This document shows positions 7,508-32,847 of a DNA stretch of 64,000 nt, one piece after another (the first letter of the stretch is position 1; every line of letters begins with the position of its first letter). The stretch is from Promicromonospora sukumoe 327MFSha3.1. GTDB lineage: Bacteria > Actinomycetota > Actinomycetes > Actinomycetales > Cellulomonadaceae. A program made the translations under genes and the position numbers. Location of the stretch: assembly GCF_000385135.1 (NCBI RefSeq), contig NZ_ARQM01000017.1, positions 124,001 to 188,000 on the forward strand. Direction: 5' to 3'. The notes under the pieces were generated by a model. It saw nothing but the letters and a program-made list of their open reading frames with translations. It made no database searches and was not told the DNA's origin.

Positions 7508-7912
7508 TCAGCGGCTGAGCTCGATGAGCGCCAGCAGCGCGAGCCCGTAGGCCTCGGCGGGGTCCGGGTCGGCGAACAGCCGGACCTCGCCGAGGAGCTG
7601 GGCCTCGACCTCGAAGCCCTTGTCGGTGCGGCGCAGCGCGTGGAAGGCCGAGCGCAGCAGCGCGCGGAGCTGGTCCTCGCGCGGCAGCCAGAGGGCGTCC
7701 TCGATCGCGACCGAGTCCAGCGCCCACTCGGTGGTGCCGTTGAACCCGAGGATCGTGCCCGTCGGGTACTCGTGCGCCTCGATGGTCATCGTGCTCACGG
7801 TGAAGATGTCGCTCTCGAGGTCGGGCGCCTGCACCCGGAACTGGTCGCCGTCGACCGGCGTCCAGACCAGGCCGGCGTCGTGCAGCTTCGTGGCCAGCTC
7901 GGTGGAGATCAT
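7508..7912 (-). CDS. Conserved small actinobacterial protein of unknown function
   Basis: 134 residues, soluble, no signal peptide or membrane segment. The opening MISTELATKLHDAGLVW-P and the ending ALLALIELSR match a small family common in actinobacteria that databases often label, without real support, as a pilus assembly CpaE-like protein. It has no ATPase motif, so that label should not be trusted. Its stop faces the VanY-like gene 9 bp away, and it lies 19 bp downstream of the VOC gene on the same strand, so it may be the last gene of a tetR-VOC transcript. Confidence 0.65.
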   Translation of the reverse strand: MISTELATKLHDAGLVWTPVDGDQFRVQAPDLESDIFTVSTMTIEAHEYPTGTILGFNGTTEWALDSVAIEDALWLPREDQLRALLRSAFHALRRTDKGFEVEAQLLGEVRLFADPDPAEAYGLALLALIELSR

Positions 7913-27912: not shown

Positions 27913-28030
27913 CTTGCCTCCGGGGTGCAAGCGCCCTGAGCGGGGCGCAACCACTGGTCCACGTACGTGGGCCACGTGACACTCTGGAGAGAGCGGGCGA
28001 AAAGGGCAACGAAAGTATGCTGCTCACCCG

Positions 28031-28070
28031 CTGTCCGCCGCCTGGGAACCAGCACCCAGGCGGCGGACAG
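28031..28070 (-). terminator. Perfect 16-bp stem-loop terminator
   Basis: Arms 28031-28046 and 28055-28070 (CTGTCCGCCGCCTGGG and its complement) with an 8-base loop, 17 bp past the stop of the minus-strand hydrolase and before the protease promoter. It separates these two same-strand genes. Confidence 0.75.
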
Positions 28071-28087
28071 CTTTCAGCGGGCGGGGC

Positions 28088-28933
28088 TCAGCTGTTCCGG
28101 GCCGCGTCCAGGATGACCTTGGTGACGGCGCCGGGCTGGCTGATCATCGCGACGTGGGAGCTCTTGAGCTCGACCGTCGTGGAGCCGGCGCGCTTCGCCA
28201 TGGCCCGTTCGGCCTGGGGCGGGATGATCCGGTCGTTCTTGGCCACGATGTACCAGCTCGGGATGTCCTCCCAGGCGGGCGGGCCGGACGGCGTCACCAG
28301 CGAGCTGAGCGTCGCCGGGCGCTGGCTGGTGGCCATGACGCGGGCCGTGTCGCGCGGGAGGTCCTGGGCGAACAGTCGCGGGTACCACTCGGGGTCGATG
28401 TACGCGTCGGCGTCGTTCTCCGGGGCCCCGGGGTAGGGGCGCAGCACGAGGTGGTCGATCACGACCGGCGGCGGGCCGCCGCCCAGCGCGTTGGCGTCGG
28501 CCACGGTCTCGCCCTCCGCGAGCGCGAAGCCCGCCACGTAGACCAGCGCCTCGACGTCGTCGTCGCCGGTCGCGGCGTTGGTGATGACCGCGCCGCCGTA
28601 GGAGTGGCCCACCAGCACGATCGGTCCCTCGATCGTGTCGAGGAACAGGCGCAGGTACTCGCTGTCCGACGTCGGGCCGCGCAGCGGGTTGGAGAACGCG
28701 ATGACCGGGTAGCCGCGGTCCATGAGGCGCTCGGAGACGCCGGACCAGCCGCTGGAGTCGGCGAACGCGCCGTGCACGAGCACGATGGTGGGCTTGGTGT
28801 GATCACCCGGGGACCCGTGGGAACCGTGCGAGCGGGCCGGCATGGTGGAGCCGGTCACGGACGAGAGAGCGAGCAGTGCCGTGGCGAGCGCGGCGACCAA
28901 GGCGGTAGGGCGGGTGAAGCGTCTCCTGGCCAT
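28088..28933 (-). CDS. Secreted alpha/beta hydrolase (esterase-like)
   Basis: 281 residues. N-terminal signal peptide (RRRFTRP then a hydrophobic run to about residue 30) and a His/Gly/Ser linker, so the enzyme is exported. Oxyanion motif LVHGAFADSSGW near 52-63, nucleophile Ser 111 in VGHSYGG, acid in VAKNDRIIPP and His in SSHVAMISQPG near the end: the salicylate-esterase/MenH-like group of small hydrolases. ATG at 28933 with GGAGAC upstream. A 23-bp site lies 59 bp upstream, identical and in the same orientation to that before the hydrolase at 31899. Confidence 0.85.
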   Translation of the reverse strand: MARRRFTRPTALVAALATALLALSSVTGSTMPARSHGSHGSPGDHTKPTIVLVHGAFADSSGWSGVSERLMDRGYPVIAFSNPLRGPTSDSEYLRLFLDTIEGPIVLVGHSYGGAVITNAATGDDDVEALVYVAGFALAEGETVADANALGGGPPPVVIDHLVLRPYPGAPENDADAYIDPEWYPRLFAQDLPRDTARVMATSQRPATLSSLVTPSGPPAWEDIPSWYIVAKNDRIIPPQAERAMAKRAGSTTVELKSSHVAMISQPGAVTKVILDAARNS

Positions 28934-28992
28934 CGGTATGTCTCCTGTCGTGGTACGGACACAAAAGATCATCCGCAGCGGACCGGGTGAAT

Positions 28993-29015
28993 GGACCACG
29001 TGAACCACGTAGTCC
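28993..29015 (-). promoter_or_regulatory. 23-bp regulator site, copy 1 (upstream of the secreted hydrolase)
   Basis: Read towards the hydrolase at 28088 the site is GGACTACGTGG followed by TTCACGTGGTCC. It is an imperfect dyad (9-bp arms with one mismatch, 5-bp centre). The exact sequence recurs at 31809-31831. It also sits 26 bp before the start of the LuxR gene. Confidence 0.75.
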
Positions 29016-29041
29016 CTCCCGTACCGACCTACCGTGGGCGG

Positions 29042-31789
29042 ATGGAGACCGCCGCCACCCCTCTGGGGCGCGACGAGGAGCTGCGTCGGCTGGCCGCGCT
29101 GCTCCGCGGTGCACGCACCGGCCGCGGCGGGTCGCTGCTGGTGCTGGGCGAGCCGGGGATCGGCAAGACCTGCCTGCTGACCGAGGCGACCCGCGTGCCG
29201 GGCCTGGCCACGATCCGCCTGGACGGGTACGAGTCGGAGTCGACCATCCCGTTCGCGGCGGTGCAGCGCCTGGTCACGACGCTCCGCGAGCACTGTGCCG
29301 AGCTGCCGGAGCGGCAGCGGCAGGCGGTGCGCGTCGCGTCGGGCCAGACCGAGGGGCCGCCGCCCGACCGGTTCCTGGTGGGCCTGGGCGTGCTGGGCCT
29401 GCTCTCGGCGGCCGCGGACCGCACCCCCGTGGTGTGCGTGGTCGACGACGCGCACCTGATCGACGCCGAGAGCCTGGACGCCCTCGCGTTCGTGGCGCGG
29501 CGGCTCGCGGTGGAGCACGTCGCCGTGGTCTTCGCGGCGCGGGACGACGGCGGCTTCGCGGAGCGGATGGGCGGCGTGCCGCACCTCGCCCTCACGGGCC
29601 TGGACCTGGAGGCCGCGGTGCAGCTGCTGAACCGGTCGGCGGCGCAGCCCGTGGCGCCGTCGGCGGCCGCGGCCATCGCCCGGGCCACGGGCGGCAACCC
29701 GCTGGCGCTGATCGACCTGGCGGGCGACGCCCTGGTGCACGAGCTGCCCGACCTGGGGCTCGGCGGCGCGCCCGTGCCCGTCGGCCGGCACCTCGAGGAG
29801 CACTACGTGCGGCAGGTGCGGCGCGCCGACCACCACGTGCAGGCCTGGGTGCTGCTCGCGGCCGCGGACTCCACGGGGAACATCGACCTGCTGGCCGCCG
29901 CGGCGGCCGACGTCGGGCTGGACCCCGGCGGCGGCGACCGGGCCGAGCTCGCCGGCCTGGTGGAGCTGCAGCCCGTGGTGCGGTTCCGGCACCCGCTCGT
30001 GCGCTCGGCCGTCTACAACGCCGCGCCCGGCCCCGAGCTGCGCCGCATGCACGCGGCGCTCGCGCGGGCGGCGGAGGGCCTCGGCCTGGTCGAGACGGCG
30101 GCCTGGCACGCGGCCCGCGCCGTGCTGGGCACCGACCCGGCGGTCGCCGACCGCCTGGCGCACACCGCGGACCTGGCCGCGCGGCGCGGCGGGCTCGCCT
30201 CGCGCGCGACGATCCTGACCCGCGCCGCCGAGCTCACGCCGCCCGGGCCGGTCCGCGGCGCGCGGCAGGTCGGCGCGGCCGAGGCGGCACTGTCCGTCGG
30301 GGCCGTCCACCTGGCCCAGCGGCTCGTCGACGAGATCGACCTGACCGCGGTCGACGCCGTCACGAGCGGCCGCGTGACATCGGTGCGCAGCGCCCTGGCC
30401 CTGTTCACGGCCGACCCCGACGGCGTCCGCGGGGTCACGGCCGCGCGCCTCGGCGCGGCAGACGCGTTCCACGGCCGGGACCCCGAGCGGGAGCAGGTGG
30501 CGCTGCTGCGCGCGTTCGAGTCGTGCTGCACGGCCGAGCGGCTCATGCTCGGGGTCACGCGCGAGGAGCTGGGCCGGCGGCTCGCCGCGGGCGCGGACCT
30601 CGCGGAGGGGCCGACGTCCGCCGTCCTGCGCGGGCTGGGCGCCCTGGTGCTCGAACCGTATCCCCAGGCCGTGGGCCCGGCGCGGGCCGCGCTCGACGCG
30701 CTCCTCGCGCTGCCCGACACCGAGCTGATGCACCTGGGCACCACCATCGCCTCGCTCGGCACGTTCCTGTGGGACGACGCCGGCCGCACCGCCGCCCTGG
30801 TCCGCGCCGCCCAGGCGGCGCGCGACTCCGGGGCGCTGCAGGTGCTCGACACCCTGCTGTGGGTCATGGCCATGACCGAGCTCTGGGGCGGGTCGCTGCG
30901 CCGGGCCACCAGCTACGACGAGCTGGTGCGGGAGGTGCGCCGCGCCATGGGGTACGACGCCGAGAACGTGCCCAACGTCGCCGTCCTGGCCTGGACCGGG
31001 GCGCCGCGGCCCGCCGTCCAGGCGATCGCCGACGGCGCCGCCGCGACCGGGTTCGGCGGGGTCGAGGGGTCCGCCGTGGCGGCTCTCGCGGTGCGCGACC
31101 TCGCCGAGGGCAGCTACCAGGACGCCTACGAGCGGCTGCTGCCGCTCATCGAGGACCCGTTCCTGCACGTCACACCGCACCAGTACCCCGACTACGTCGA
31201 GGCGGCCGCGCGCAGCGGGCACCCGGCCGAGGCGGCGCGGGCCGCCCGGCTGCTGTCCGCCCTCGCGGACGCGAACGGCTCGGCGTGGTGCCGCGGGGTC
31301 GCGGAGCGGGCGCTGGCGCTGTCCCTGGCCGACCCCGACGATCCCGAGCCGCACTACCGCGCCTCGATCGAGGCCCTGGGCGGCACGGGCGCGGAGATGG
31401 ACCGGGCCCGGTCCCACCTGGTCTACGGGGAGTGGCTGCGCCGGGCCCGACGGCGGCGTGACGCGGCCGAGCAGCTCCGCCTGGCCCTGCAGCAGCTGCA
31501 CCACAGCGGCGCCGAGCTGTTCGTGGCGCGCACCGTCGCGGAGCTGGCGACGCTCGGCACCCCGGGCGACACCGACGCCCCGCCCCGGCGGTTCGGGCTG
31601 ACGGCGCAGGAGCACACCATCGCGCGCCTGGCCGCGCGCGGGCGCACCAACCCCGAGATCGCGGCGAACCTGTTCATCAGCCCCAGCACCGTGGACTACC
31701 ACCTGCGCAAGGTCTTCCAGAAGCTCGGCGTGACCTCGCGGCGGCAGCTCGCGGACCGGCTGGCCCTGCACGCCGGCGCGGCGCCATAG
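29042..31789 (+). CDS. LAL-type LuxR regulator (AAA ATPase + HTH)
   Basis: 915 residues. N-terminal AAA domain: Walker A GEPGIGKT near 36-43 and Walker B VVCVVDDAH near 133-141. A long helical (TPR-like) middle region follows, and a C-terminal GerE HTH at about 855-910 (FGLTAQEHTIARLAARGRTN, PSTVDYHLRKVFQKLGV). Large ATP-dependent LuxR proteins usually activate target promoters on ligand binding. I chose the ATG at 29042 rather than the in-frame ATG at 28991, because the longer form would begin inside the 23-bp regulator site. Both flanking genes are alpha/beta hydrolases with this site upstream, which makes them the likely targets. Confidence 0.9.
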   Translation: METAATPLGRDEELRRLAALLRGARTGRGGSLLVLGEPGIGKTCLLTEATRVPGLATIRLDGYESESTIPFAAVQRLVTTLREHCAELPERQRQAVRVASGQTEGPPPDRFLVGLGVLGLLSAAADRTPVVCVVDDAHLIDAESLDALAFVARRLAVEHVAVVFAARDDGGFAERMGGVPHLALTGLDLEAAVQLLNRSAAQPVAPSAAAAIARATGGNPLALIDLAGDALVHELPDLGLGGAPVPVGRHLEEHYVRQVRRADHHVQAWVLLAAADSTGNIDLLAAAAADVGLDPGGGDRAELAGLVELQPVVRFRHPLVRSAVYNAAPGPELRRMHAALARAAEGLGLVETAAWHAARAVLGTDPAVADRLAHTADLAARRGGLASRATILTRAAELTPPGPVRGARQVGAAEAALSVGAVHLAQRLVDEIDLTAVDAVTSGRVTSVRSALALFTADPDGVRGVTAARLGAADAFHGRDPEREQVALLRAFESCCTAERLMLGVTREELGRRLAAGADLAEGPTSAVLRGLGALVLEPYPQAVGPARAALDALLALPDTELMHLGTTIASLGTFLWDDAGRTAALVRAAQAARDSGALQVLDTLLWVMAMTELWGGSLRRATSYDELVREVRRAMGYDAENVPNVAVLAWTGAPRPAVQAIADGAAATGFGGVEGSAVAALAVRDLAEGSYQDAYERLLPLIEDPFLHVTPHQYPDYVEAAARSGHPAEAARAARLLSALADANGSAWCRGVAERALALSLADPDDPEPHYRASIEALGGTGAEMDRARSHLVYGEWLRRARRRRDAAEQLRLALQQLHHSGAELFVARTVAELATLGTPGDTDAPPRRFGLTAQEHTIARLAARGRTNPEIAANLFISPSTVDYHLRKVFQKLGVTSRRQLADRLALHAGAAP

Positions 31790-31808
31790 CACCTCCCGGA
31801 CCCGCGAC

Positions 31809-31831
31809 GGACTACGTGGTTCACGTGGTCC
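31809..31831 (+). promoter_or_regulatory. 23-bp regulator site, copy 2 (upstream of the cytoplasmic hydrolase)
   Basis: Identical over all 23 bases to the site at 28993-29015 when each is read towards its own hydrolase gene (GGACTACGTGG then TTCACGTGGTCC). It ends 67 bp before the ATG at 31899, against 59 bp for copy 1, a position typical for an activator upstream of the -35 region. Confidence 0.75.
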
Positions 31832-31898
31832 GCGCGAGCCGGGCTGGACGGCAAGGTCGAGGACGTCGCCCCTGACCGACGCCCCGAGGAGCAGCCAG

Positions 31899-32723
31899 AT
31901 GAACGCAGCACAGCCCGACACCGTCGTCCTCGTCCACGGTTTGTGGATGACCCCGCGCAGCTGGGAGGCCTGGGTGGACCACTTCCGGGCCGAGGGCCTG
32001 AACGTGGTGACGCCCGGCTACCCCGGCTTCGACATCGAGGTCGAGGCACTGCGGGAGAACCCCGAGATCATCGCGAAGCTCACCGTGCCCGAGACCGTCG
32101 ACCACCTCGCCGGCGTGATCGAGGCCCTGCCGAAGCCGCCGATCATCATGGGCCACTCGTTCGGGGGCACGCTCACGCAGCTCCTGCTGGCCCGCGGGCT
32201 CGGCGCCGCGGGCGTCGTGATCGACTCCGCGCCCACCGAGGGTGTGCGGGTCAGCCCGCTGTCGCAGGTCAGGTCGCTGTTCCCGGCGCTGAAGAACCCC
32301 GCCAACCGGCACCGCGCCGTGGGCTTCACGCCCGAGGAGTTCCACTACGCGTTCACCAACACGCTCTCCGAGGAGGAGTCCCGCCAGGTCTGGGAGCGGT
32401 ACGCCATCCCGGCGCCCGGGCACTGGGTCTGGGAGTACGGCCTGTTCGCGAACCTCAAGCCCGGGCCCCAGGAGACCTGGGTGGACTACGCGGCCGACCG
32501 CGCCCCGCTGCTCTTCATCGGCGGCAGCGAGGACCACATCATGCCGCCATCGGTGAACCGGTCCAACGCCAGGCACTACGACAAGTCTCCCGCGGTCACG
32601 GAGTACTACGAGTTCGAGGGCCGCGACCACTGGACCTGCGGCGCGACCGGCTGGGAGGCCGTGGCCGACCACGCCCTGGCCTGGGCGCGGGAGCACGCGG
32701 CGACGTCGGACCCGGTGGGCTGA
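31899..32723 (+). CDS. Alpha/beta hydrolase, paralogue of the one at 17967
   Basis: 274 residues, no signal peptide. LVHGLWMTPRSW at 11-22 (oxyanion hole), nucleophile Ser 87 in GHSFGG, acid in GGSEDHIMPP, His in GRDHWTCG. GAGGAG precedes the ATG. The shared core with the 17967 hydrolase suggests a recent family expansion. Together with the exported hydrolase at 28088 it could form a two-step route, one enzyme outside and one inside the cell; that is inference. Confidence 0.85.
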   Translation: MNAAQPDTVVLVHGLWMTPRSWEAWVDHFRAEGLNVVTPGYPGFDIEVEALRENPEIIAKLTVPETVDHLAGVIEALPKPPIIMGHSFGGTLTQLLLARGLGAAGVVIDSAPTEGVRVSPLSQVRSLFPALKNPANRHRAVGFTPEEFHYAFTNTLSEEESRQVWERYAIPAPGHWVWEYGLFANLKPGPQETWVDYAADRAPLLFIGGSEDHIMPPSVNRSNARHYDKSPAVTEYYEFEGRDHWTCGATGWEAVADHALAWAREHAATSDPVG

Positions 32724-32749: not shown

Positions 32750-32818
32750 CCCCTTTCGAGGCCTAAGTTTCTTCGCTTTGAATGACTCCAAAGCGAAGAA
32801 ACTTAGGCCTCGAAGGGG
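32750..32818. repeat. Long hairpin element, copy 1
   Basis: 24-bp perfect arms (32757-32780 with 32789-32812), extended by CCCCTTT against AAGGGG with one bulge, and an 8-base loop. The core GAGGCCTAAGTTTCTTCGCT is shared with the element at 39212. It lies between convergent genes 27 bp after the hydrolase stop and is probably a bidirectional terminator. Confidence 0.85.
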
Positions 32819-32847
32819 AGCCGCTAACGCGGCTCCGGACCCGGCCG

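Follow-up and report, generated by a model that had tools for sequence, protein, structure and literature searches.

A 23-bp sequence that occurs twice in a 64,000-nucleotide stretch of the Promicromonospora sukumoe 327MFSha3.1 genome (contig NZ_ARQM01000017.1, positions 124,001 to 188,000; we refer to the whole of this stretch as the window) is most probably the operator of a large ATP-binding LuxR (LAL) regulator encoded between two alpha/beta hydrolases, H1 and H2. We put at about 0.8 the probability that the LAL acts there as an activator, in a class II geometry, with both binding and activation deduced from sequence comparison. The computed support consists of the site itself, its conservation, a fixed promoter geometry, the way in which the site tracks hydrolase genes and its co-occurrence with the LAL.

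As the sequence-only reading had it, the 23-bp sequence is present in two identical copies, which lie 59 bp before the ATG of H1 (28933) and 67 bp before that of H2 (31899). Both have the same orientation relative to their own hydrolase, because the copies are mutually inverted on the forward strand and H1 is encoded on the minus and H2 on the plus strand. With up to three mismatches allowed, the chance expectation in the window is 0.00 (100 shuffles). The genome-wide search for the 23-mer that had been suggested (6.25 Mb, 18 contigs) returns, at up to two mismatches, only the two places in the window; at three mismatches there are eight further matches vs 13 for a reversed-pattern control, so this level is not above control. 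The site, which had not been called a palindrome, is an imperfect one: GGACTACGTG-nnn-CACGTGGTCC. Its short core has 249 matches in the own genome, many of them due to chance, against 140 in the control, and a looser pattern, built from the bases that are invariant in relatives, finds one extra place, which is inside open frames and is followed within about 120 bp by no start of an open frame of 120 aa. Within the genus, 5 of the 15 places matched by the degenerate pattern are off the locus; all five fall inside long open frames (a single frame contains three of them), and we regard them as coding chance. We also rejected a candidate third site before an S8 peptidase gene (27964-27979), the core of which has one mismatch: its ends are unlike those of the operator, and the core is broken in the relative G097 despite a conserved neighbourhood. 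The segment before this peptidase (27951-27985) is rich in CACGTG, reading GTCCACGTACGTGGGCCACGTGAC on the plus strand, and is partly altered in G097.

Features of the LAL locus in the window, with positions counted from the first nucleotide of the window
Feature	Position	Strand	Basis
Proposed operator copy 1, GGACTACGTGGTTCACGTGGTCC, oriented to H1	28993..29015	-	sequence and genome search
Proposed operator copy 2, identical to copy 1, oriented to H2	31809..31831	+	sequence and genome search
Putative H1 promoter -10, GATGAT, with its A at offset 21 past the site	28968..28973	-	conserved AnnnT offset; function inferred
Putative H2 promoter -10, CAAGGT, with its A at offset 22 past the site	31852..31857	+	conserved AnnnT offset; function inferred
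H1, alpha/beta hydrolase, 281 aa, N-terminal signal-like stretch	28088..28933	-	Pfam and alignment
LAL, 915 aa, AAA_16 ATPase and LuxR/GerE helix-turn-helix, proposed activator	29042..31789	+	Pfam and relatives
Putative LAL gene -10, TACCGT, located 14 bp past operator copy 1	29030..29035	+	sequence and TAnnnT in relatives
H2, alpha/beta hydrolase, 274 aa, without signal-like stretch	31899..32723	+	Pfam and alignment

The regulator in the window is a LAL: it has the size of about 900 aa, the N-terminal ATPase and the C-terminal LuxR helix-turn-helix of this group. In a Pfam scan, the ATPase (AAA_16, PF13191) scores 73.4 bits at residues 7-163, with GEPGIGKT present, and the C-terminal GerE domain (PF00196) scores 57.8 bits at residues 853-905; no autoinducer-binding domain is found among the Pfam hits at E 0.001. 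Assignment to MalT proper was rejected, as the PRK04841 model reaches 29.7 bits against a cut-off of 537 and matches residues 849-902 only. For the LAL gene, 29042 is the most likely start, in preference to an in-frame ATG (28991) directly before the site, because relatives align from 29042 onward.

H1 and H2 match Abhydrolase_6 with 105.8 and 71.7 bits, respectively. Their catalytic triads, assigned by sequence, are invariant in the alignments, with Ser111/Asp234/His260 in the 11 aligned H1 sequences and Ser87/Asp212/His244 in the 10 aligned H2 sequences, the window included in both. H1 is putatively exported, given an N-terminus that appears signal-like by eye. Among solved structures, those nearest to the H1 family profile are the alpha/beta hydrolases 8hfw (65 bits) and 6tj2 (44 bits), followed by a pyrethroid hydrolase, hydroxynitrile lyases and SABP2 (35-38 bits), and matches of the H2 family profile are weak at most (6tj2, 42 bits). 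We rejected membership of either protein in the non-heme chloroperoxidase family, whose best member, a gamma-lactamase, scores 33.2 bits with the H2 profile and 22.7 bits with the H1 profile. The predicted structures have a mean pLDDT of 54.8 (H2) and 34.2 (H1), a quality too low for a fold search. Two long hairpin-like inverted repeats, found by eye past H2 (32760-32825) and in the gap between H1 and the S8 peptidase gene (28025-28075), are probably terminators; the repeat at 28025-28075 is present in the relative G128 and absent from G097.

By the criterion set beforehand, a binding site would have been refuted if relatives had kept the three genes but lost the sites; among close orthologues this did not happen. 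Our family sample comprised 150 genomes out of a larger group. A LAL at E 1e-100 is present in 45 of them, and in 24 of the 45, the own genome included, it is at least 46% identical, which gives 25 loci, two of them in G105. At every one of these 25 loci (24/24 genomes) a site with at most three mismatches stands before a hydrolase. In other families of the order, a site with two to five mismatches precedes a hydrolase at 16 of the 17 loci where a LAL reached E 1e-150; the remaining locus, L153, has just a partial LAL match with 423 bp of sequence after it. The loci of the relatives thus support the earlier proposal of a LuxR-protein binding site before an outside/inside pair of hydrolases, with the LAL as the presumed binding protein. 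Seven distant LAL loci, of 38-42% identity, have no match better than five mismatches across the whole locus, although three of the seven carry a variant site (described below), and for LALs of 36-39% identity no site above chance level was found. In the wider class, LAL matches occur in 6 of 345 genomes, three of them new, and two of the new genomes have an altered site before a hydrolase of the chloroperoxidase (CPO) type. In a scan of the phylum, 22 of 396 genomes had matches, which were at one mismatch except in the own genome.

The third new genome of the class (L166) belongs to another family and has no site within 1.5 kb of its LAL. A site is present 2.5 kb away (7560-7582), and this operator with its -10 is followed after 86 bp by a second LAL-like ATPase gene, not by a hydrolase; an Abhydrolase_10 protein is encoded between the first LAL and the second LAL-like gene. 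At L083, L085 and L091 the LAL match is in pieces while the sites and hydrolases are kept, H2 also being split in L091; the split LALs reflect either decay or an assembly error.

Three types of hydrolase are found at LAL loci that carry the site: H1, H2 and the CPO type, which has full-length matches to chloroperoxidases/arylesterases (1a8s, 1a88, 1zoi). The first gene after the LAL in the 25 family loci is of the CPO type in 18 and H2 in the other 7, which include the window, and the commonest order (15/25) is LAL, CPO-type hydrolase and then H2. No CPO-type hydrolase was found at the window locus, and the gene was presumably lost in the lineage of the window. Among loci of the same genus and related ones, G128 is like the window, G097 has CPO and H2, and G105 has only CPO at this locus. 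H1 carries a site of its own and is placed divergently from the LAL, upstream of it in the same direction or elsewhere; L069-L071 show the second of these placements, with the site before H1. A scan of the downstream neighbours of H2 in seven relatives revealed no shared gene, with a phosphodiesterase in two and a NAD-binding protein in two.

The anatomy of the site was studied in a set of 51 sites from 40 loci (34 CPO, 11 H1 and 6 H2). An H2-like locus with two mismatches (L086) was left out of this set by a GHS motif filter, and L087-L089 were handled apart as variants. Eleven positions (3, 4, 6, 7, 8 and 16-21) are invariant across the 51 sites, and the 43 sites with distinct flanks hold 32.4 bits within the site against about 0.3 bit per flanking base, a conservation that is somewhat inflated by the collection rule (at most five mismatches) and that comes from related genomes, which are not independent samples. 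A -10-like AnnnT is found at offset 21 or 22 past the site in 51/51 sites and in 43/43 flank-distinct ones. At the other three-offset windows tested it is found in at most 8 of the 51, and 5000 shuffles for the 43 sites gave a mean of 1.5 and a maximum of 7. Ten further sites obey the same rule: 9/9 outside the set, and L086. Across the 51 sites the first base of the -10-like hexamer is G (32), C (18) or A (1), and never T.

Class II activators bind an operator next to the -35, with its centre near -42, and need a constant spacing from operator to -10. Because the AnnnT offset is fixed, the centre of the palindrome would fall in a class II-like position, at about -43, provided that AnnnT is the -10. 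Of the 14 loci read at the LAL start, 11 (L066, L067, L069, L071-L074, L076, L077, L081 and L083) also have a TAnnnT no more than 40 bp from the residue at which the LAL alignment begins, a pattern that suggests leaderless or short-leader transcription of the LAL gene. In the window the LAL may also control itself, because the LAL start follows copy 1 at a distance of 26 bp and TACCGT follows it at 14 bp.

The opposite sign of regulation is conceivable for the same arrangement: the LAL would bind and repress, its site overlapping the -35 and blocking polymerase until a ligand frees it. The expected -35 position does lie under the site, and copy 1 in the window is just upstream of the -10-like element of the LAL gene, so that self-repression would be possible. 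Still, we consider repression unlikely, since hexamers that never begin with T fit dependence on an activator and the constant -10 spacing is what a class II activator requires. Furthermore, MalT, a STAND-type relative, is an activator according to passages of PMC10427625.

A pattern scan of the 150 family genomes yielded 26 zero-mismatch matches to the degenerate pattern, 24 of which (hand count) are at LAL loci. One of the remaining two, in G122, is 58 bp before an H1 homologue that shares a contig with the LAL but is 1.67 Mb away from it; the other, in G074, is within long open frames. In G116, a site with three mismatches precedes a remote H1. Of 30 loci taken from the scan matches, all 14 in LAL genomes are followed by a hydrolase and none of the 16 in genomes lacking that LAL is. 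For H1 and for H2, the test covered 30 loci each, taken among matched places. H1 genes of at least 64% identity in LAL genomes have the site in 13 of 14 cases (the exception, in G060, has its H1 after CPO and H2), and the site is found at 0/14 H1 loci in genomes without the LAL and at neither of two H1 paralogues of 47% in LAL genomes; this contrast may partly be one of relatedness, because the H1 homologues in genomes without the LAL are more distant (47-62%) and the 47% paralogues have no site. G031, a genome of the same genus, has six H1-type homologues at E 1e-50 and no LAL of at least 46% identity; the one of these loci examined (L187) is without the site. The 30 H2 loci have the site in 5 and a variant site in 4, and those without it are behind CPO in LAL genomes (12) or in genomes without the LAL (9). 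It is hydrolase promoters that the site accompanies, including ones remote from the LAL.

All 41 site-bearing LALs that were read have T[VI]DYHLRK[VI]F in the helix-turn-helix, a recognition segment common among LALs. Three LALs of 40-42% identity have TVHYHLRKAF in place of TVDYHLRKVF, and these have a changed palindrome, TGACTACCCGnnnCGGGTGATGC, before H2 (one starts GG). The variant reads TGACTACCCG-nnn-CGGGTGATGC (GGACTACCCG... in G085), with the frame and the distance to the promoter unchanged. Four more distant LALs have the helix T[IV][DE]AHLR[SRN]IF. The covariation of helix and site is not strict, because L162 and L163 keep the usual helix and have an altered right half-site.

An unlinked regulator that binds the palindrome, with the LAL a mere neighbour, is in our view quite improbable. 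The site does contain CACGTG, which can be bound by several unrelated regulators, and G073 (L226) has a variant operator before H2 and no LAL reaching E 1e-100. Against these observations, the site stands before a hydrolase in 24/24 family genomes with a LAL of at least 46% identity, none of the 16 pattern matches in genomes without the LAL precedes one, and a changed LAL helix accompanies the changed site in three genomes. That the two copies are a functionless recent duplication or gene-conversion tract, as their variable centre, also identical between copies in the window and in G128, might suggest, is hardly credible given the same site amid divergent flanks in 40 loci, its 11 invariant positions and the differences between the two copies in G105, G097 and G067.

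We therefore return to activation by the LAL, for which we propose the following course. The LAL, a STAND-type regulator, would be switched on by a signal and, in its active form, would bind, in dimeric or higher oligomeric form, to the palindrome, whose centre would be some 43 bp ahead of the transcription start. It would then contact RNA polymerase and activate the weak -10 promoters (first base not T) of H1 and H2; in most relatives it would activate the CPO-type hydrolase and usually then H2. With one LAL acting on both promoters, outside and inside esterase-type enzymes would be made together. The likeliest role of these hydrolases would be to degrade and so remove a compound that resembles an ester or lactone and is related to the inducer; the type of enzyme and the one putatively exported partner point to clearance of an ester-like compound both outside and inside the cell. 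A more elaborate version, which we regard as doubtful, is a self-limiting relay in which the STAND regulator would sense an ester- or lactone-like signal of neighbours or plants, and the induced exported hydrolase and one or two internal ones would process and remove it. An internal hydrolase might also restrain the regulator, a feature modelled on E. coli Aes with MalT.

What began as a repeat in one genome has led to a proposed operator in which 11 bases are invariant and the spacing to a -10-like element is fixed. Its putative targets are both near and far from the regulator, and it would join three types of hydrolase into one response. Together with a natural pair of helix and site variants, these features open the DNA code and the inducer of this LAL group to direct tests. 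Our literature search, the coverage of which mostly leaves out subscription papers, found no description of this operator or module.

Several known systems share parts of this arrangement. The lux box of Vibrio fischeri, a palindrome of roughly 20 bp, sits beside the -35 in a class II position near -42, and the operator in the window resembles it as a palindrome that would adjoin the -35. However, unlike V. fischeri LuxR, the LAL has no autoinducer-binding domain by Pfam, and the sequence of the site differs. The non-heme chloroperoxidase/arylesterase family (1a8s, 1a88, 1zoi) is matched by the CPO-type hydrolases of the relatives, whereas H1 and H2 fall into other alpha/beta hydrolase groups. 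E. coli MalT, a STAND activator, shares with the LAL the ATPase and the C-terminal LuxR-type helix-turn-helix; the MalT model matches the helix-turn-helix alone, and the operator and target genes differ. MalT is bound and inhibited by the esterase Aes, as passages of PMC10427625 describe. The LAL regulators of actinomycetes, such as SCO0877 and SCO7173, are like the LAL of the window in size, N-terminal ATPase and C-terminal LuxR helix-turn-helix. In passages of PMC3282765, the LAL family is described as poorly studied, S. coelicolor is credited with 14 putative LALs, and LALs of the SCO0877/SCO7173 type appear as pleiotropic or antibiotic-cluster regulators. Compared with the regulators portrayed in those passages (PMC3282765), the LAL of the window is seen with a narrow operator and a regulon of hydrolases.
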